From: Candidatus Bathyarchaeota archaeon
GTDB lineage: Archaea > Thermoproteota > Bathyarchaeia > Bathyarchaeales > Bathycorpusculaceae
Direction of reading: 5' to 3'
NCBI GenBank assembly: GCA_903901015.1
Contig: CAIUPH010000026.1
Span: 1-64,000 of the forward strand
DNA length: 64,000 nt
Both the position numbers and the translations under genes were made by a program. Below are positions 31,735 through 44,177 of this stretch, piece after piece (the first letter of the stretch is position 1; each line of letters opens with the position of its first letter). The notes under the pieces were generated by a model. The model did not search any database. It saw only the letters and a list, made by a program, of their open reading frames with translations, and was not told the DNA's origin.

Positions 31735-34700
31735 CTACTTAAAATCGAAAAGCGTAGCCTGCTTGGGTTTTTTGTTGTCAAACATCGTGGCTATCTCTTC
31801 CTTAATCAGGTCCATACGCTGCGTATAGTAATTTGGGAGCCCGTACTTGTCGACAAGTTCCTGAGCAGCTACAAGGTACTTCTCGATGCCGCCGCGGTAG
31901 ACGGTAAGCGTTAGTTTTCCGTTGCAGGATGGGCATTTGCCTTGGAGGGGCAATCGACGGAATTTTTTGTTGCAGTTTTTACATCTGAAGCCCTGAGTTG
32001 AGAAGGCCCGCAGGTTCCCAGCGATGTCGCGCATTAAATGGGTGTTCAAAACTTTCAAGGCTACGCGTCTGGCGTCTACGGCGTCGATTCGCTCCCCCAA
32101 CTCCAGCTGCATGTGGAGTTTATCTATCATGGATTTGAATTCTTTGTAAGAACTGTCAGCGTTACCCATGTTAATGTTTGTGCAGGGGGTGGTGTACTGG
32201 AAGCCTTCGTACTGCGCTTCAGTGCCTAGTCTATGGCTGATTACATCCATGAGTGCGCTGGCTGGTCGCGCATCACACTTCTCCATGGTTTTCTTGTAGA
32301 ATTCAATCGGGTACGTTTGGCTAACATCGAAGTCGTGGGCTTGACGCTGGACTTCTTTAGTGTTCACGAAGGGAATGAGCAGGATGGGGGCATCCATGAT
32401 TCCGCCTATCTGTGCGGGCAAGAATACACGGGAGAAATTAAGAAGCGTATCTAGCCCAAGCATGATGGCGTCTTCGTCGCCGTCGCAGTCGCGGCGTTTA
32501 GCCGAATGCCAAACGGGATGAGCATAGATGACGTTGCGGTCAGTGAAACCGACTACTCTGCCCAATATGCAAGCGCATGTGTGAGGCGCCAACCCGAAGA
32601 TTATGTGCCCGACTAAATCTTCAGGTTTTTTAACGTTGTAGAATGCAGGTTGCTTGTAGACACGCGTTAAGAGGTCGTCTATGAAGGCGGCAATCTGAAG
32701 GAAGTATTCGCCCGCTCGCCAGGGAATCACGACGTCTTGGATCTTAAGTTCGCAGACTTGGTTAGGATCAGTTAATGGCAAACCATGGGTGTCAGCTAAG
32801 TAACCCATTTGATGCATCTTTTCTATGGACACACCGATTTCGACAGGAGTAATATGCGTCAATGGCGCATTCGTAGCATCAAAGCGTATAGTGCCATCCT
32901 TGTAGACGGATAAGCCATGCTTTGCACGCAAGATGCCTTTTTCAATCATTTCCGGAGTCTTATCCAGATTCGTGAGGCCTTTAACACCGCGCAACATTTT
33001 TGGCGACTGACATCCGAGGGAGAGGCTTGCGTTAGCTATTAGGTCTTTGAAGTTAATCGGTTGCCGCTGGTACATAACGCCGTCTGTTTTACAGGTGGGG
33101 CATCCAGAATCCTTTACGGGTCTTCCGCATCGGGGACAACTGTTCTCGTGTACGGTTTCGCAGCCGCAGGCATCACATTTTATTTTTAAAGTGTAATTTT
33201 TGCAGAGGGGGCACTTGCGTTTTGTTAACTCAACAAAAAATGGTCCTTGCTTCGCCGCTTCCACGAGGTCGCGGTGTGAACCACCCTTCAGACCGACTGG
33301 GAATAATACGTGAACTAATGGCTTCATTTCGCGGTGCTTGGCTTTCTCTGGCCTGCCCATGCGTCCTCCAACGTAGGTTGGCGCTTTATCTTTAATCTGC
33401 ACTCCTGAGAGCATGCTCAACAGTTCCAAAACAGAACTCGCTTGAGCAGCCTGCGTTTTTCCATAGCCAAGAGAGAATGCGAGGGAAGCTGCATCTTCAC
33501 CCGTGAGCACGATTTTGCCGTCTATGATTTTGTGTGGAACAAAGATTTTCCTCAATGAACTCGTCACGGCATCGTTAGCGTCACCCACAATTTTGCCTGC
33601 AAAGTCACTTTCCATTGTTACTTCACATGGTGTGAGCCACTGCCTCAGCACCTCGACGTCTTGCATGTCGGAGAGGCTGCCCCAGAATAAGAGGCAGTTG
33701 GGAGCAAGCGGGATACCTAACTGGCAACTTAATGCAGCGGCTTCCTTGACGGTTGGCTTGTTCACAAATGGATCTGCTATGAAACCTTCAATTTTCTCTA
33801 CAGACAGGTTTACTGCTTCAGCAGCCTTCTGGTAGTCAGAACCATACTTCCCCTGAATAGCGATCTGCAGGTCTTTAGCCCACCATTCCTCCACGTAGCC
33901 AGATGGTGGAAGCGCCTTGTTGCAGTAGAGGAAATCACCAAAGTCTATTAGCATGTCGCCTAAGAAGAGGATTTTTTGGATCTTACCTTTAACGGTTTCA
34001 AAGTTTTCAAGCGACACCCGAACCACTGAGCCGTCTTTGAGTTGCACCACGGGTTTTTCGATACTGTCAACGGGCATCGTGACGCCACCTTTGCCAGGTA
34101 GTTCCAAACGCATTTGTGTGCCTGCGGCTAAGAACCTCTCCACTACAAGCATCGTCGCAGGATGAATCCCTACGGCTGAAAGCCCAGTGTTCCGCGACCT
34201 ACCATACCTAAGCCTGAAACCGCCGCGTGTCGACGGAAAAGCGAAGATGGGTCGACCAGCAATAACGTCATCCATGAAGCCGCCGGATTTCTTTTCCGAT
34301 TTCTTCTTAAAGTTTTTGAGCCATTCCCAACCTTCAAAACCCAGCTTATCAATAATTACATAAACTTTCTGTGCGCGTCCCACAATGCCGTCGTTAACGA
34401 CCCGGAGTGCGCCGCCCCGGACACGGTTTGTTTCAACCCTCTCCAAGTTACGGTAAGAAGAGACTTCAACGGGGTCAGATTCGGTTCCAGTGCATTCAAC
34501 TGGAATCAGGTTGAGGGCTTTTCTTAGTTCTTCGTCGGGAATATGATATTGAAAACGCCCCACCGAACGTTCATACAGCCTTAATTCTTCTACGAAGCGG
34601 GAGACTTCTTCTTCGGTTGGCTTGTACTTGTCAAGGTTCAACTCCCTGCGTACGTAATCGCCCACGACCAGCGTTAAAGCTTGGTCTGTGCCGCCTGCAG

Positions 34701-35142
34701 AGCGGATGGGGCCAGCAAAGTAGATAGCGAGGTATTGGGTTCTATCTGCATTCAGTTTAATTTTAACGTGGGCGATACCTTGAATTGGCGCGGCAGTTAA
34801 GCCTTCAGTGAAAATTGCAAGGGCAGTCCGAATGGCTTGTTCTGCTAGTTGCTCTTGCTTTTGTTCAGTTTGTGCAAATTTGCCTTGAGCAATCTGCTGG
34901 GCTACCTTAAACGCAACTTCTTCTCGTGACATCTTTGTGCTTAATTCTCGGATGCTGAGAGCAACGTCCTTGGGTCCAACCAAGCCTTCCACCAAATCTG
35001 CAATGTCCTGTGCAATGATGCATTCAGTTTTGAGGGCTGGGTCAAGACCCTTGGATCTGGCGCTGTCGCTTATAGCGTATAATCGCTTAAGCTCGTTTTC
35101 CATTGTTTTAACGTAGTTTTGATAGCCCTTGCTGATGTTCAA
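31735..35142 (-). CDS. polC: DNA polymerase II (D-family) large subunit DP2
   Basis: 1135 residues, normal for archaeal DP2, with no intein. Features: IKLNADRTQYLAIYFAGPIRSAGGTDQA near 127-154 and TRGGFRLRYGRSRN near 304. A zinc region CPLCKNYTLKIKCDACGC...CPRCG...CPTC lies near 640-690. The catalytic RRDCDGDEDAIMLG near 890 holds the paired Asp residues of the double-psi beta-barrel core. A C-terminal CxxC pair and a final QATLFDFK match a PIP box (QxxLFDF) for PCNA. DP2 is the polymerase subunit and acts with DP1 (42.6 kb here). Confidence 0.97.
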   Translation of the reverse strand: MNISKGYQNYVKTMENELKRLYAISDSARSKGLDPALKTECIIAQDIADLVEGLVGPKDVALSIRELSTKMSREEVAFKVAQQIAQGKFAQTEQKQEQLAEQAIRTALAIFTEGLTAAPIQGIAHVKIKLNADRTQYLAIYFAGPIRSAGGTDQALTLVVGDYVRRELNLDKYKPTEEEVSRFVEELRLYERSVGRFQYHIPDEELRKALNLIPVECTGTESDPVEVSSYRNLERVETNRVRGGALRVVNDGIVGRAQKVYVIIDKLGFEGWEWLKNFKKKSEKKSGGFMDDVIAGRPIFAFPSTRGGFRLRYGRSRNTGLSAVGIHPATMLVVERFLAAGTQMRLELPGKGGVTMPVDSIEKPVVQLKDGSVVRVSLENFETVKGKIQKILFLGDMLIDFGDFLYCNKALPPSGYVEEWWAKDLQIAIQGKYGSDYQKAAEAVNLSVEKIEGFIADPFVNKPTVKEAAALSCQLGIPLAPNCLLFWGSLSDMQDVEVLRQWLTPCEVTMESDFAGKIVGDANDAVTSSLRKIFVPHKIIDGKIVLTGEDAASLAFSLGYGKTQAAQASSVLELLSMLSGVQIKDKAPTYVGGRMGRPEKAKHREMKPLVHVLFPVGLKGGSHRDLVEAAKQGPFFVELTKRKCPLCKNYTLKIKCDACGCETVHENSCPRCGRPVKDSGCPTCKTDGVMYQRQPINFKDLIANASLSLGCQSPKMLRGVKGLTNLDKTPEMIEKGILRAKHGLSVYKDGTIRFDATNAPLTHITPVEIGVSIEKMHQMGYLADTHGLPLTDPNQVCELKIQDVVIPWRAGEYFLQIAAFIDDLLTRVYKQPAFYNVKKPEDLVGHIIFGLAPHTCACILGRVVGFTDRNVIYAHPVWHSAKRRDCDGDEDAIMLGLDTLLNFSRVFLPAQIGGIMDAPILLIPFVNTKEVQRQAHDFDVSQTYPIEFYKKTMEKCDARPASALMDVISHRLGTEAQYEGFQYTTPCTNINMGNADSSYKEFKSMIDKLHMQLELGERIDAVDARRVALKVLNTHLMRDIAGNLRAFSTQGFRCKNCNKKFRRLPLQGKCPSCNGKLTLTVYRGGIEKYLVAAQELVDKYGLPNYYTQRMDLIKEEIATMFDNKKPKQATLFDFK

Positions 35143-38040: not shown

Positions 38041-38545
38041 GTGTCACACAAAAAATTATGCTCCGTACCTTCGCATCACAAGTGAATCACAGACCTGTGA
38101 TGTCAATGGATTCATGGGTAAATCACGGTGATTTCGTTCGTGATTGGTGACGTCACGGACATTTTTCCATATAAAAATCTATGAATTTACGCTAAAAACT
38201 ATGTTTCAAAAAAGGTAGAGTAAGAAAAAAATGGGTGTTATTTTGATAAACTTGTCAAAAATAGCAGAGACCGACTTTTAGAGATATTGCAAAAGTGCAC
38301 TTTTTGTATAAAGTTCCGACTAAAACCTGTCCTGGATAATCAATAATTTAGCCGTTTTTGTGTTAACTATGCTTAATTGTGACCTAATCAGCTAAATTGG
38401 CGCGTAATAGACGTATTTTCAATTTCAGGGGCTAATACAGCCACAATATCCTGTGTTATTGACTCTGCTTCGCTTGGAGAAGACTTAAAAACAGGGCGCA
38501 GGATACAAAAGCGTATCCATTTGAAGTATAGGAGAGAGCAGCACT
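38041..38545. promoter_or_regulatory. Intergenic region with GTGAT/ATCAC motif cluster
   Basis: This 505-nt gap has no convincing gene. Between 38073 and 38160 there are many GTGAY and RTCAC half-sites, including GTGATGTCA near 38097 and the exact palindrome GTGACGTCAC at 38147-38156. Further on there is an AT-rich stretch and the inverted repeat GGATAC...GTATCC near 38502-38519. GGAGAGAG lies just before the TTG at 38546. The motif cluster recurs after the next gene, so it is probably a shared operator. Confidence 0.55.
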
Positions 38546-39025
38546 TTGAAGCTAAAAGACGGCGTACAAGCATGGTTAAATGGGGCATTAAATGACCCCA
38601 TAGTAAAAATACTGGCTAAAAACAGCCAATTAACAAAAACGCAACTCGAAACACTCTTAATAGACGTTTTAGCCGAAAATTTATCAGATAAACAGCTAAA
38701 ATACGACGATAAAGCCGCATTAAGGCTAACTAAGGCTAAAATTAGCCGCGGTTCCTTTAATAGGACTTTAAAACAGTCCCGTGATAACGTAATAAAATCG
38801 ATCTATACGGTGCTATTACTAGGGTATTTGGGTGTTTTTGAGAGCACAACTCTTGACCCGTATCTCGAAATAGCCAATAAACTGCACGAATATGTCGAGG
38901 CTCACCAGGAAATCCCAGGTAAGGAAGAAGAACTAAAAGACCATCTAAAAGTCATAGAAATCATCAGAGAGGAGCTCGAAACGAGCCTAAAACGGCTTTC
39001 TAGTCCATCAAAAGAGACATTGTGA
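38546..39025 (+). CDS. Hypothetical protein in the GTGAT/ATCAC-flanked pair
   Basis: 159 residues from TTG 38546, preceded by a strong GGAGAGAG stretch. It is helical and highly charged, with no membrane span: an N-terminal LKDGVQAWLNGALND, a central basic SRGSFNRTLKQSRDNVIKSI, and an acidic coiled-coil-like tail. It is not recognised. The stop codon lies inside a GTGACGTCAC palindrome (39022-39031) identical to one upstream at 38147-38156. Its place beside a membrane winged-helix gene and a likely origin suggests a regulatory or origin-linked role (inference only). Confidence 0.6.
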   Translation: MKLKDGVQAWLNGALNDPIVKILAKNSQLTKTQLETLLIDVLAENLSDKQLKYDDKAALRLTKAKISRGSFNRTLKQSRDNVIKSIYTVLLLGYLGVFESTTLDPYLEIANKLHEYVEAHQEIPGKEEELKDHLKVIEIIREELETSLKRLSSPSKETL

Positions 39026-39031
39026 CGTCAC
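39022..39031. promoter_or_regulatory. GTGACGTCAC palindrome overlapping a stop codon
   Basis: The 10-nt perfect palindrome is repeated exactly at 38147-38156. It is followed within 15 nt by another ATCAC site. It is a candidate binding site for a dimeric regulator. Confidence 0.45.
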
Positions 39032-39182
39032 AAATCACAGTATAATCTTTCTTTTTTAGCAACAAATTAGGACTGCCAAACCATCCCGAATATATGCTCA
39101 ATTTAGAATCCATATCAATTAATAAGCTCAAATAATGGCGCTTTAGATTTATAATAAAAAGTCCAAGATAAGATGATAATTA

Positions 39183-39266
39183 ATTGTGATGTGTGATGTC
39201 ATAGTAACCATGCATTATGTGACCACAAACCTTAAGAAGTCCATGGAATTATTGTGATGTGTGATG
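39183..39266 (+). promoter_or_regulatory. Direct repeat operator-like sites before the membrane wHTH gene
   Basis: ATTGTGATGTGTGATG occurs exactly at 39183-39198 and 39251-39266, 68 nt apart. The second copy covers the start codon. A TATA-like ATAATAAAAA lies at 39151-39160. This looks like autoregulation of the gene starting at 39257. Confidence 0.5.
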
Positions 39267-40048
39267 CAACCGCTAAAATCACGCATAAATCACAGAGGTA
39301 TGATATCACGTTCGACTTTACACCCGTAATCATAGGCGTTCTATTAGCAGCAACAGCAGCAGCCTCAGTTGAATATTATAGACAGATACGTAAAGCGCAG
39401 AAAGAATATGAGAAAGCCAGGGACTTTGTGGAAGATATTGTGCTGAGTTTTAACCGTGAGCTTAAGCGTGAAGCCGACAGATTAGAAGTAATATCCTTTA
39501 AAGTGGAGGGAAACTCTGCAAAAGTAGACACCAGCCTAAACAAGATAGACAAAGTGGAAAAGAGGCTAACTCCGTTCGAGCAACAACTCGGCGACATCAC
39601 ACAAACCATCTCACAAACACTCTCACAGAACAACACCAGCATTCTATCAGGGTTGTCAGGTTTAGAATTAAAAATCAAGGACATTGAAGCTTCACAAGAA
39701 ACTCTAAAAGTAAAGATAACCACCTTCGAAGAACAGATCCAGAAGTTCAACGCTGCCCCGGCTGAAATCCGAAATGAACCCGTGATACTAATCAAACGTG
39801 ACAAAGCCATGGCCGCCCTAACCGATACAGAAATCGCCGTGTTGGAAATGCTGTCTAAAGAAGGGGCCAAGACCGCGCCAGAAATTAAAGAAAGAGTGCA
39901 CTTGAGCAGGGAACATACGGCGCGGTTGATGAAGAAGCTTTATGAAGAGGGTTATCTGGAGCGGGAAGAGGAAAAGATTCCCTTCAGGTACAGCATCAAG
40001 AAGGAAATGGAGAGCCTGATGCAGAAACCTGAAAGCAACGCATCATAA
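39257..40048 (+). CDS. Membrane-anchored coiled-coil protein with C-terminal winged helix
   Basis: 263 residues (ATG 39257; GTG 39254 possible). One hydrophobic helix lies near residues 23-40 (PVIIGVLLAATAAASV). A long charged coiled coil covers about 45-180. A MarR-like winged helix covers about 190-255 (ALTDTEIAVLEMLSKEGAKT, then APEIKERVHLSREHTARLMKKLYEEGYLERE). This would hold a DNA-binding domain at the membrane. The start lies inside a direct repeat of GTGAT motifs, so it may bind its own promoter. It lies about 0.7 kb from the first ORB-like element. Confidence 0.7.
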   Translation: MCDATAKITHKSQRYDITFDFTPVIIGVLLAATAAASVEYYRQIRKAQKEYEKARDFVEDIVLSFNRELKREADRLEVISFKVEGNSAKVDTSLNKIDKVEKRLTPFEQQLGDITQTISQTLSQNNTSILSGLSGLELKIKDIEASQETLKVKITTFEEQIQKFNAAPAEIRNEPVILIKRDKAMAALTDTEIAVLEMLSKEGAKTAPEIKERVHLSREHTARLMKKLYEEGYLEREEEKIPFRYSIKKEMESLMQKPESNAS

Positions 40049-40109: not shown

Positions 40110-40544
40110 CTACTTTATGCGCTGTTTTATGGATGTTACCTGAGAAAGGTTAAGCGCCGTTTTATATTTTAGGTTGTTTGGTCCACCGGTTCTTAGCAGC
40201 ATACCTTTAGTAGCCATTCTTGAAAGGTAGGTTGAAACCGTGCTCAGACCAACGGGTTCTTTGAGTTCCTGTTCATAGATTGATTGGATGTCTTTTGATG
40301 AGAACCAAATTAAAGGAAAATTCTTCTGGATAACCTGTTGAACCTTTTCAATACGCGATAAAGCCTTGTTCGGTAAAGCATTTCCCATATTGGCATTCGG
40401 GTTCTCGCCTGGTGCACTCCCCAAAAGCTCCACCAAATCCAAAAGGCGCAAAGCTTTATCACGGGTCACTTGACCCTCGAAAGCAATAGTATATCGATTA
40501 CCATCGCTATCGAACAGCTCAACGCGCATTTTACGAGCCGGCAC
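40110..40544 (-). CDS. Unknown protein with C-terminal winged-helix-like domain
   Basis: About 144 residues from GTG 40544; ATG 40529 is possible. The N-terminal part has a strand-rich VELFDSDGNRYTIAFEGQ. A linker with ENPNANMGN follows, then a C-terminal helical region (about 85-130) with SSKDIQSIYEQEL and GLSTVSTYLSRMATKGMLLR that reads as a winged helix. No family is recognised. AGTATAAAG lies about 35 nt before the GTG. It borders the origin region on the left and may be an origin-associated regulator. Confidence 0.6.
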   Translation of the reverse strand: MPARKMRVELFDSDGNRYTIAFEGQVTRDKALRLLDLVELLGSAPGENPNANMGNALPNKALSRIEKVQQVIQKNFPLIWFSSKDIQSIYEQELKEPVGLSTVSTYLSRMATKGMLLRTGGPNNLKYKTALNLSQVTSIKQRIK

Positions 40545-40734: not shown

Positions 40735-40762
40735 TTTTTCCAGTAGAAGTGTAGGGGTGTCT
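40735..40762 (+). promoter_or_regulatory. ORB-like element 1
   Basis: Contains TTTTCCAGTAGAAGTGTA followed by GGGGTGTC. It resembles the archaeal ORB core CCAGTGGAAAC...GGGG, with two differences in the GAAAC part. Confidence 0.5.
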
Positions 40763-40987
40763 TATTCACTTGTTAAAGACAAGGAAAATACGATTTATCG
40801 GAAAAGAGCTGTTGTGAAGCAACAAATTCTATGTTATTTCACATGTGTTCACAGTTTTGTGAAGCTAAAAAATCAAAAAATCGTTTGGAAAAAACTGGAG
40901 AGGAAACTTTAGTTTTGATGAAGACAACTTACGATTAAAATAATCATCTATCGGTTTTTTCTCAGGTCATTTACCATGGAAAATCAT

Positions 40988-41016
40988 CTGGAGACACACC
41001 CCTGTGTTTCCCCTCG
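40988..41016 (-). promoter_or_regulatory. ORB-like element 2 (inverted)
   Basis: On the minus strand this reads GAGGGGAAACACAGGGGTGT followed by GTCTCC. It shares GAAAC and GGGGTGTGT with element 3 and faces the other way. Confidence 0.6.
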
Positions 41017-41087
41017 AAGTATTTGCGACATAAAGAAGTCAGGAGAGCCTAAAAAAATAATTGCAGAATGTTTGTCTAATTTCTTGG

Positions 41088-41165
41088 ATAGTAATCATTA
41101 ATATATAAAAAATCATTTTACCTATCAGAGTATATTATTATATATATTAAATATAGGAAAATATG
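41088..41165. other. AT-rich unwinding element of the putative origin
   Basis: Nearly all A and T, including TATATATTAAATATAGG. It lies between inverted ORB-like elements 2 and 3, where the duplex would open. Confidence 0.55.
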
Positions 41166-41180
41166 TTCAACTCGCTTTTT

Positions 41181-41210
41181 TCTCCAGCAGAAACGTTGGG
41201 GTGTGTGCTC
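41181..41210 (+). promoter_or_regulatory. ORB-like element 3
   Basis: Reads TCTCCAGCAGAAACGTTGGG followed by GTGTGTGCTC. This is the best match to the archaeal ORB consensus. Lies 137 nt before the cdc6 ATG and could also be bound for autoregulation. Confidence 0.62.
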
Positions 41211-41346
41211 TCGTTTTGTTTGGTTATTATCGGCTGTTTTCATTGTTTTTTAGGATTGTTGTGTTCTAAGACCAGTTTTTTGTACTAGATCCTTTATCTG
41301 TTCCATAAGAAGTAACGGTGTTACCTCTGAAGAAGTGTGGGTAGAA

Positions 41347-42594
41347 ATGGGCAACTCAAGCGTACTAGACGATGTATTCGAAAGCTTCGTAAATGGAGCT
41401 AAACTTTTCAAAGACCGAGAGGTCTTAAGACATGACTACCTTCCAGAAAAGCTTCCACACCGAGAAGACCAAATTCGCCAGTTAGGTGCAACTGTTGCGC
41501 CAGTGCTAAGGGATTCACGTTGCTCAAACATCTTCATCTACGGCAAGACTGGAACTGGAAAAACAGCCGTAACAAAATATGTGCTCAGTCACCTGGAATC
41601 CAAAGCCAAAGAGTACGGTGCACAAGTAAAATGCTGCTACATCAACTGCCGCATGACTGGCTCCGAATACAGAGTTTTTGCCGCCCTAAGCCAAAGCGTC
41701 GGTTTAACCGTACCTTTCACAGGTTTATCTGTGGGGGAAGTTTTCGACAGGTTCCGACAGGGACTGGATCAATCTAAAATAATCTTCATCATAGTCTTGG
41801 ATGAAGTGGATGCTTTGATTAAGGAACACGGCGACGCATTCATGTATGAACTCACTAGGATAAACGAAACGTTAACCAAAAGCAAAGTTGCCATAATCGG
41901 AATATCCAACGACCTGCGCCTAAAAGAATTCCTAGACCCACGCGTCTTCAGCTCACTTAGCGAAGAGGAGCTGGTTTTCAGGCCATACGACGCCGGTGAA
42001 CTTCGAAACATACTGCTTGAGCGCTCAAAGTTGTCTTTCCAAGATGGTGTGTTATCCGAATCAGCGTTGAGCATTTGCTCGGCTTTAGCAGCTGCAGAGC
42101 ATGGAGATGCTAGGAGAGCTCTGGATTTGTTGCGGGTCGCTGGGGAAGTGGCTGAACGTATAGGTGCAAAGACGATTACTGAGGAACATGTTCGCCAGGC
42201 TGAGAAACATATTGAACACAACCGCGTCGTCGAAGCCCTCAACAACCTAACTCTCCACTCAAAACTGGTGCTGTTAAGCGTCTACCACCTGAACAAGCCA
42301 AGCGCCTCAACAGGGGAAATATATGATATTTATAATGAATTGTGCGGTGAAATGGGCGCTGGGCTTCTAACACAGCGACGTTTAGGCACACTAGTTAATG
42401 AGCTTGATTCGATGGGTCTTGTGAACGCTAAAGTCGTAAGCATGGGTCGATACGGCAGAACCAAAAAGATACGTTTGGAGATTTCCCGTAGCTTGATTAG
42501 GGATGTTCTTGGCGGCGACAACCGTTTTACTCCGCTGATTGAGTATAAACCTCAAGCATCAGCATCACATAAAGGCTCAACTGGCGGCTCCTAA
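41347..42594 (+). CDS. cdc6: Origin recognition protein Orc1/Cdc6
   Basis: 415 residues from ATG 41347; GTG 41335 would add four. The AAA+ core has Walker A FIYGKTGTGKTAVTKYV near 56-72, Walker B IIVLDEVDALIKEHG near 138-152 and sensor 1 IGISNDLRLKEFLDP near 180-194. A C-terminal winged helix (about 305-395) has KLVLLSVYHL and TQRRLGTLVNELDSMGL. It recognises ORBs and loads MCM. Its place right beside the putative oriC supports both calls. It ends four bases into the convergent DP1 gene. Confidence 0.96.
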   Translation: MGNSSVLDDVFESFVNGAKLFKDREVLRHDYLPEKLPHREDQIRQLGATVAPVLRDSRCSNIFIYGKTGTGKTAVTKYVLSHLESKAKEYGAQVKCCYINCRMTGSEYRVFAALSQSVGLTVPFTGLSVGEVFDRFRQGLDQSKIIFIIVLDEVDALIKEHGDAFMYELTRINETLTKSKVAIIGISNDLRLKEFLDPRVFSSLSEEELVFRPYDAGELRNILLERSKLSFQDGVLSESALSICSALAAAEHGDARRALDLLRVAGEVAERIGAKTITEEHVRQAEKHIEHNRVVEALNNLTLHSKLVLLSVYHLNKPSASTGEIYDIYNELCGEMGAGLLTQRRLGTLVNELDSMGLVNAKVVSMGRYGRTKKIRLEISRSLIRDVLGGDNRFTPLIEYKPQASASHKGSTGGS

Positions 42595-44177
42595 GCATCG
42601 TTAAAATTTAGAACAGTCGTATGCATCGTTTGCAGGTTCACAACCGGAACAAAACCCGGCGTTGGAACCAACCCTAATTTTTCCATATATTCCGTTTGTG
42701 ATTGCCAACCGCCCGAATTCACCACGAGCACTCCGCGGTAATTGCAAAGCCCATTAACATGTACATGTCCTGCATGAAAAATATCTGGAACCCTGTCGAT
42801 CACTAGGTAATCGCGGTTTTCTGGGGAAAGCATGGTTTTTCCTCCATAGACGGGTGCTAAATGCCTTCCCTGCATGAGTAAACGCATGGATTTTTCTGGG
42901 TGCTGATGGTCCATGCCGGGGATAACTGAAACTATGTCGTCTAAGCTTCTGCCATGGTACATGAGTACTTCTACGCCGTGAAGGCTGAGTAGGCATGGGC
43001 TGCCGACGGAGTGAATGTTCTTTTTGCCTTGAATCGCCGTCAGGTACCCTTCTGGTATAGCGGGTTGTGGTAGGGATTTGCGTGCGGCATCATGGTTGCC
43101 TGGAGACAGGACGATTTCGATGTAATCTGGTATTTTTTCTAAATATTTGATGGCGAAATTGTATTGTTTATGAATGTCACGTATAGTTAATTCGTTTTGT
43201 TGGCCGGGATAGATTCCTATGCCGTCAACTATGTCGCCGGCTATGAGGAGATATTTTACGCGGCTGGCTATTTCACGCATTTCCGGGGTTCCATATTTGC
43301 CCATCAGCCAGAGGATGAAACGTTTGAAGGGTTCTTTAGTAAATTTCGTGCTGCCAATATGAATGTCGGATGTGAGAACCGCATAGACTGGTTCTTGCGC
43401 TCGCTGCGGCACCTTCCTGCCTACGTCAGGAAAAATTATGTCTTCAGCCATCAACAGGTCGCCTTTTGTCTTAACGACCGCTGCACAGAACACCTGGTCG
43501 GGCAGAAGCGTGAATGCTTTCTTCTTTACTTCTTCAGGCGCATTTTTAGAAACCATAATGGTTGCGCTTCCATGTAAATCCTCAACTGAGAGTATTGTGT
43601 TATTTTTTGAGTCTCGTTTCTCAGTTAACATACAGACGATTTTGAGCTTGGTTTTCGGCGGCGATTTGAGGGCTTCTATGATTGGGGTTGCCGCTTTAAC
43701 ATCTATCCTTTGCCTTAGCAATTTTTCGATACGTTTGAAGCGGTCCTGAAAATAAAGCACATATTCATCCAACGTGCCGTTTGAAGTGAGTTTTCCAGTT
43801 GCGTCTTCAAGGATAATGAGTTCTGACGGTATATCTCTGGCGTATGGATAGAATTCTGTTTGGGTTAAGCTTGGATATTCCTTAAGTGGCTGCAATTGAG
43901 GCTGTGGAATACTGGGCGAAGGTCTGTACTGCGGTTCAGCCACTTGGATTTGTGGCGCAGACACGGTTGCTTGTGACAAAGCTTCTAGGAAGCTTTTCTC
44001 GATGAACATGGGTTTGTCCTGTAAGGTTTCGATTCGCTCAAGCGCCAAATTCATGATTGTCACGGGGTCGTTGGTTTGTGCGTTTTGAATCAGAAACTCG
44101 AATGCTTCGCTGTTTAGTTGGTATCCTGCCGCGAACGCTGTTTGCATTGCTGTTTGGATTTTTTCTTGCGCGCTCAT
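42591..44177 (-). CDS. polB: DNA polymerase II (D-family) small subunit DP1
   Basis: 528 residues. An N-terminal helical domain (about 1-65) and a Pro/Gln-rich linker (about 75-110) precede an OB fold. The Mre11-like phosphodiesterase has DIHIGS near 270, AGDIVDG near 313, SPGNHD near 360, YHGRS near 407 and AGHVHVNG near 468. These give 3'-5' exonuclease proofreading. It works with DP2 (31.7 kb). Convergent with cdc6 by four bases. Complete. Confidence 0.96.
   Translation of the reverse strand: MSAQEKIQTAMQTAFAAGYQLNSEAFEFLIQNAQTNDPVTIMNLALERIETLQDKPMFIEKSFLEALSQATVSAPQIQVAEPQYRPSPSIPQPQLQPLKEYPSLTQTEFYPYARDIPSELIILEDATGKLTSNGTLDEYVLYFQDRFKRIEKLLRQRIDVKAATPIIEALKSPPKTKLKIVCMLTEKRDSKNNTILSVEDLHGSATIMVSKNAPEEVKKKAFTLLPDQVFCAAVVKTKGDLLMAEDIIFPDVGRKVPQRAQEPVYAVLTSDIHIGSTKFTKEPFKRFILWLMGKYGTPEMREIASRVKYLLIAGDIVDGIGIYPGQQNELTIRDIHKQYNFAIKYLEKIPDYIEIVLSPGNHDAARKSLPQPAIPEGYLTAIQGKKNIHSVGSPCLLSLHGVEVLMYHGRSLDDIVSVIPGMDHQHPEKSMRLLMQGRHLAPVYGGKTMLSPENRDYLVIDRVPDIFHAGHVHVNGLCNYRGVLVVNSGGWQSQTEYMEKLGLVPTPGFVPVVNLQTMHTTVLNFNDA

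Follow-up and report, generated by a model that had tools for sequence, protein, structure and literature searches.

Membrane-bound one-component regulators with a winged helix are represented in archaea by the ArnR/ArnR1 type, which presumably control their own genes. Similar winged helices occur in AspA, the centromere binder of the archaeal plasmid pNOB8 (PDB 5k5q, 5k1y, and 4rs8), and in MarR/TrmB-like regulators (PF01047 and PF01978). At archaeal ORB/Orc1-Cdc6 origins, repeats lie beside cdc6 (PMC4010727). WhiP, the winged-helix initiator of Sulfolobus oriC3, is described as related to Cdt1, has no membrane helix, and serves its own origin (PMC4010727). Nitrosopumilus maritimus has one mapped origin in a genome of 1645 kb (PMC5333045, PMC4010727). 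How SegA and SegB drive segregation is not understood, according to a 2024 review (PMC7617429). Origin positioning and segregation in archaea outside Sulfolobus and its relatives are an open question.

The locus reported here lies in a 64,000-nt stretch of archaeal DNA, hereafter the window. It contains two genes (genes 1 and 2), a reversed gene 3, orc1/cdc6, and arrays of GTGAY half-sites and their reverse complement RTCAC. Its features are as follows, with the basis of each in brackets.

38043-38156, no strand: upstream array of nine GTGAY/RTCAC half-sites, including GTGACGTCAC at 38147-38156 (positions, shuffle)
38501-38518, no strand: palindrome GGATACAAAAGCGTATCC, proposed operator of gene 1 (conservation, copy number)
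38546-39025, + strand: gene 1 (g1), 159 aa, all-helical (ORF, profile and family searches, model)
39022-39038, no strand: site A, GTGACGTCAC-AA-ATCAC over the gene 1 stop (positions and composite in relatives)
39183-39200, + strand: site B, GTGAT-GT-GTGAT-GTCA, a 7-bp direct repeat (positions, spacing)
39219-39223, + strand: lone GTGAC half-site between sites B and C (positions)
39251-39266, + strand: site C, where ATTGTGATGTGTGATG recurs, spanning the annotated gene 2 start (positions)
39278-39309, - strand: site D, ATCAC at 39278, 39289, and 39305, the first two 11 bp apart (positions, spacing)
39254/39257-40048, + strand: gene 2 (g2), transmembrane helix at the N-terminus, then a long coiled coil, and a MarR/TrmB-like winged helix at the C-terminus (ORF, Pfam, model)
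39311-39382, + strand: predicted transmembrane segment of gene 2, approximate (hydrophobicity)
39824-40021, + strand: winged helix of gene 2 with the near-invariant recognition helix SREHTARLMKKLYEEGY (Pfam, alignment, model)
40110-40544, - strand: gene 3 (g3), a small protein whose winged-helix match, to Penicillinase_R, is weak (Pfam, synteny)
40739-40760, + strand: ORB-like repeat TCCAGTAGAAGTGTAGGGGTGT (repeat search)
40994-41017, - strand: ORB-like repeat, inverted, ACACACCCCTGTGTTTCCCCTCGA (repeat search)
41183-41206, + strand: ORB-like repeat TCCAGCAGAAACGTTGGGGTGTGT (repeat search)
41335-42594, + strand: orc1/cdc6 gene (Pfam, synteny)
42591-44177, - strand: DNA polymerase D small subunit gene, after cdc6 in the window (Pfam)

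Gene 2 resembles ArnR/ArnR1 in that one chain carries both the transmembrane segment and the winged helix, with presumed self-control. It differs in the order of its parts, the membrane helix coming first, then a long coiled coil, and the winged helix last; the module further differs in its dense array, its fixed place at the side of cdc6, and the absence of archaellum genes. The likeness to AspA is one of fold only. Unlike AspA, gene 2 is chromosomal, has a coiled coil and a transmembrane helix, and has no ParA-type partner among its scanned neighbours. MarR/TrmB-like regulators match the gene 2 winged helix by Pfam and by fold, but the N-terminal half of gene 2 is composed of transmembrane helix and coiled coil instead of MarR dimerisation helices, and an array of half-sites takes the place of one operator. 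The repeats beside cdc6 recall archaeal ORBs, whereas the GTGAY arrays themselves are unlike ORBs, and ORB-like repeats with G-runs sit separately. Like WhiP, gene 2 encodes a winged-helix protein beside an origin, and it is set apart from WhiP by the description of the latter. No prior description of these genes or motifs was found in the mostly open-access literature searched. The module appears to be a small control or anchoring unit with no earlier description found, in which the gene 2 protein most likely binds the repeats.

The window contains 160 GTGAY and RTCAC half-sites, i.e. 2.5 per kb. The initial annotation had reported dense GTGAT/ATCAC-type half-sites around the genes at 38546 and 39257, and the statistics bear this out. 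The segment 38030-38170 (141 bp) contains 9 half-sites versus 1.6 expected, with a shuffle maximum of 8, and the segment 39016-39320 (305 bp) contains 11 versus 1.5 expected, with a shuffle maximum of 7. None of 5000 Markov shuffles attained the observed counts (p≤2e-4 for both clusters), and the next densest of the window's remaining 150-bp stretches has 3 half-sites. The motif copies are found where they had been placed, GTGACGTCAC starting at 38147 and 39022 and ATTGTGATGTGTGATG at 39183 and 39251, and the coordinates given for both genes hold. The upstream array begins directly past the stop (38040) of a carbon-nitrogen hydrolase gene, and the 11 half-sites of the g1-g2 array fall within 39022-39309. 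Random clustering of the half-sites is ruled out by the shuffles and by the enrichment in the g1-g2 gaps of relatives. A search for structured RNA at the locus found none, and a reading as a defence system was rejected, as its matches were weak and only partial.

We then compared the array across relatives. The g1-g2 gaps of all order-level loci that span the gap, from nine families, have 6-18 sites each versus 1-2.7 expected. In 24 mostly Nitrososphaeria-type loci, 125 sites were observed versus 18.4 expected in total. Nitrososphaeria-type loci have fewer sites but are clearly enriched, and they share an identical ATCAC-N6-ATCAC ahead of gene 2. The spacings within the array are fixed, namely 7-bp direct, 10-bp palindromic, and 11-bp direct. 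The layout recurs as well. The composite of site A, GTGAYRTCAC-N2-ATCAC, lies at the gene 1 stop and is found across most of the order; GTGAT-N2-GTGAT follows further on and again at the gene 2 start; and ATCAC repeats 11 bp apart end the array just ahead of the coding part of gene 2. Site D of the window either coincides with the likely true start of gene 2 or shortly precedes it; the start codon is uncertain because the likely start in relatives falls after the last ATCAC repeats. The upstream array at 38043-38156 is present throughout the genus, varies within the order, and is missing in several families. As it is missing in these families and lies about 350-450 bp from the promoter-proximal palindrome of gene 1, it is not just the region ahead of gene 1, as it had been taken to be.

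The motifs are largely confined to the locus. In the whole 2,047,548-base genome, pattern search placed every copy of GTGACGTCAC, and every copy of the wider GTGAYRTCAC, at 38147 or 39022, and the reversed-pattern control for the wider form gave 3 matches. In the closed relative G048, of which 1.2 of 2.15 Mb (56%) was covered, this locus has the two densest clusters, of 9 and 8 sites; the only other stretch with at least 5 sites per 150 bp is one chance-like case of 5. Three of the five GTGAYNNGTGAY matches in G048 are at the locus. Every match of the three-site composite is at the locus in G000 and G007, while other genomes also match elsewhere. Genome-wide counts come from these pattern searches and the 1.2 Mb of G048, and the motifs, whose chance frequency had been raised as a concern, are neither random nor genome-wide. 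A genome-wide regulon is ruled out for the genomes checked by the G048 clusters, the composite matches, and the GTGACGTCAC count. As in ParABS and SegAB systems, a cluster of sites is proximal to the origin with few elsewhere, in the 56% of the closed genome sampled.

Gene 1 is present as a single copy in 113 of 120 good Bathyarchaeia genomes, and profile search detected gene 2 in 108 of the 120, some of these matches being weak. The order gene 1, gene 2, reversed gene 3, and cdc6 is found in all order-level loci with enough sequence. Another 24 loci from distant families, retrieved by profile search, have genes 1, 2, and 3, and mostly cdc6, consecutively. Homologs in the same order beside cdc6 extend to Nitrososphaeria-type genomes; profile comparison with one of them (G337) gave E values of 3.7e-8 for gene 1 and 2.2e-14 for gene 2. 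Gene 3 beside cdc6 is conserved in both groups. Conservation of the pair and its motifs beside cdc6 in other Bathyarchaeia, proposed as a check in the initial annotation, was therefore found, and it reaches far beyond this class. Judged by these comparisons, the pair is near-universal, single-copy, and cdc6-linked in Bathyarchaeia, and it is old and core.

Neither Pfam, NCBIfam, nor the PDB, searched by sequence and by fold, gave a reliable match for the gene 1 family, which agrees with the first impression of an unfamiliar gene. The core motif of gene 1 is ISRG[AS]FNRTLKQA..N...IYT.LLLGYLG. Its model has seven predicted helices and a mean pLDDT of 77.7, which makes the fold search weak. By sequence, the conserved SRG[AS]FNRTLKQ segment resembles a recognition helix. 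The gene 1 family is new and helical, unnamed, and close to universal across the whole class Bathyarchaeia. The palindrome GGATACAAAAGCGTATCC is located about 30 bp upstream of gene 1, has the form GTATACA-N4-TGTATCC in relatives, is retained across the phylum sample, and is usually the sole copy per genome. Gene 1 would regulate itself through this palindrome, a proposal that we consider rather more probable than its opposite.

The gene 2 model consists of a single long helix (residues 22-162, about 140 residues), a linker, and the C-terminal winged helix. The winged helix exceeds the gathering scores of both PF01047 (MarR) and PF01978 (TrmB), with 32.6 bits versus a cutoff of 24.6 for PF01047 over residues 189-239. 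The whole-protein architecture of MarR, a compact dimer with N- and C-terminal helices, is not seen in the model, and fold search matched MarR regulators and AspA (5k5q, TMt 0.61-0.65, E about 1e-3) similarly strongly. The basic RQIRKAQK follows the transmembrane segment, hence the C-terminus is predicted to be cytoplasmic. Transmembrane-grade hydrophobicity is found in 39 of 40 loci of the order, and Nitrososphaeria-type gene 2 also combines a transmembrane segment and the DNA-binding domain in one chain. In family f10 (L293-L312), gene 2 is without a transmembrane helix in all 18 readable genomes and has 10-19 sites upstream, which are the largest arrays seen; gene 2 of L268 likewise has no transmembrane helix. 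As f10 drops the helix yet keeps the sites, tethering is not the core role of the array. We predict that the array is kept for DNA binding as such, and on this comparison membrane anchoring is common but dispensable. The originally proposed link between origin and membrane is possible, but f10, with its large array, does not fit it as worded.

The array follows gene 2. Of 52 loci that carry gene 2, 50 also have the array; none of the 7 that lack the gene does. Loci that have gene 1 but not gene 2 contain at most 2 sites, and L255-L257 and L262 have neither gene 2 nor the array, yet retain gene 3 and cdc6. On the gene 1 tree, absence of gene 2 requires at least four label changes (about four losses), and the array is absent each time. 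With only four independent pairs, of which three are concordant, the co-loss is suggestive and not significant (independent-pairs test, p 0.25). The exceptions with gene 2 but no array are L268, where another gene lies in a long g1-g2 gap, and L261, where g1 and g2 are divergent with a gene between them; the largest exception set coincides with the insertion of an unrelated gene. The gene between g1 and g2 appears by eye to be HTH plus CBS-like (L261 7540-8400 and L268 7760-8390), and the array there is weak or absent. In L265-L267, g1 and g2 overlap, and the motif copies are upstream of the pair. The array tracks gene 2 in these loci too, as would be expected if the gene 2 protein binds it. 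The near-invariant recognition helix of gene 2 pairs with an invariant motif. Self-regulation, suggested in the initial annotation, gains comparative support from the sites over the gene 2 start. The case for gene 2 as binder is strong but circumstantial, and its self-control is likely.

The array is not the origin proper. Three ORB-like repeats at 40739-41206, upstream of cdc6, carry the ORB consensus TCCA..GAAAC..GGGG, one of them imperfectly, and relatives carry similar repeats; the consensus is absent from the GTGAY array sites. An AT-rich stretch lies between the inverted repeat at 40994-41017 and the repeat at 41183-41206. The origin is probably located at these repeats, between gene 3 and cdc6. 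As the ORB-like repeats are separate, the arrays are not ORBs but flank the probable origin at a distance of 1.4-3.1 kb. Coarse GC skew of G048 turns positive around 1.70-1.74 Mb, and the array is at 1.743 Mb; fine-scale cumulative GC skew, in the window and locally in G048, has no minimum at the locus. Skew therefore does not serve as proof of the origin.

We narrowly favor an ancient origin-side module in Thermoproteota-type archaea, with the gene 2 protein on GTGAY arrays that surround its own gene and reach upstream of it. The gene 2 winged helix would bind the arrayed half-sites; GTGACGTCACAAATCAC-type DNA is its proposed target, and TGTGACGTCACAAATCACA and ATTGTGATGTGTGATG are candidate target DNA for the C-terminal winged helix at residues about 180-264. 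That the array binder is the gene 2 protein is highly probable. Binding over the promoter and start would control gene 2, which we regard as probable. Assembled on 10-20 half-sites, an oligomeric coiled-coil protein would pack the origin flank into a compact nucleoprotein complex, and this complex would usually, not always, be held at the membrane, namely in lineages with the transmembrane helix. Its service in origin positioning, segregation, or initiation timing is a tentative part of the proposal. The place, the array size, and the architecture suggest that the module helps to position or segregate origins or to control initiation. A previously undescribed system of Bathyarchaeia and ammonia oxidisers, free of a ParA motor, in which anchored gene 2 protein and array hold sister origins at the membrane or count initiations, is unlikely though conceivable. 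For the open question of origin positioning, a concrete lead that is cheap to follow is this single-copy pair with its dedicated cis-elements, which most Bathyarchaeia and many ammonia-oxidising-type genomes keep next to cdc6.

One alternative is plain self-regulation, in which gene 2 is a membrane-bound one-component regulator with its own promoter as sole target, and its position near the origin merely reflects inherited gene order and has no function. The sites lie over the gene 2 start in nearly all genomes and upstream of the overlapping g1-g2 unit, no further clusters occur in the genomes checked, and the array persists after loss of the transmembrane helix. Yet 10-19 half-sites would be a high number for a simple operator, and the genus-level upstream array is 350-450 bp from the pair's nearest promoter element, at the end of the preceding gene. 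A regulator of itself only also requires some other output, and the cdc6-adjacent order is retained from Bathyarchaeia to Nitrososphaeria-type genomes. We consider this explanation possible but doubtful.

An iteron-like array near the origin, one per chromosome, could also act as a centromere: together with gene 2 it would form a partition complex resembling parS/ParB or AspA and position sister origins, the membrane anchor replacing or standing beside a ParA-type ATPase. AspA is among the many MarR-type fold matches, but its match is no better than those of ordinary MarR regulators, and no ParA/SegA-type Pfam match was found among the neighbours scanned between 28221 and 49107, nor in g1-g3. 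Such a partition complex seems improbable. It could further be that gene 1, gene 3, or Cdc6 binds the array and gene 2 is a mere neighbour, given that genes 1 and 3 share this conserved location and might themselves be DNA binders. Against this stand the arrayless loci with gene 1 but without gene 2, four of which keep gene 3 and cdc6, the separate ORB-like sites for Cdc6, and the palindrome that gene 1 has to itself; we hold another binder to be very improbable.

The preferred origin-side module has further genes in its surroundings. Several relatives have two additional genes that separate gene 2 from gene 3 (L065 5724-8061), one of them coding for a HerA-type ATPase (DUF87). The other encodes 339 aa in L065, has no Pfam match, and stands where a NurA-like partner would. 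Both are missing from this position in the window's genome. A second cdc6, distantly paralogous (31% identity), is located on another contig (G000:C112:23027-24136), likewise in most relatives. Both DNA polymerase D subunit genes flank the locus, at 31735-35142 and 42591-44177, each on the - strand.
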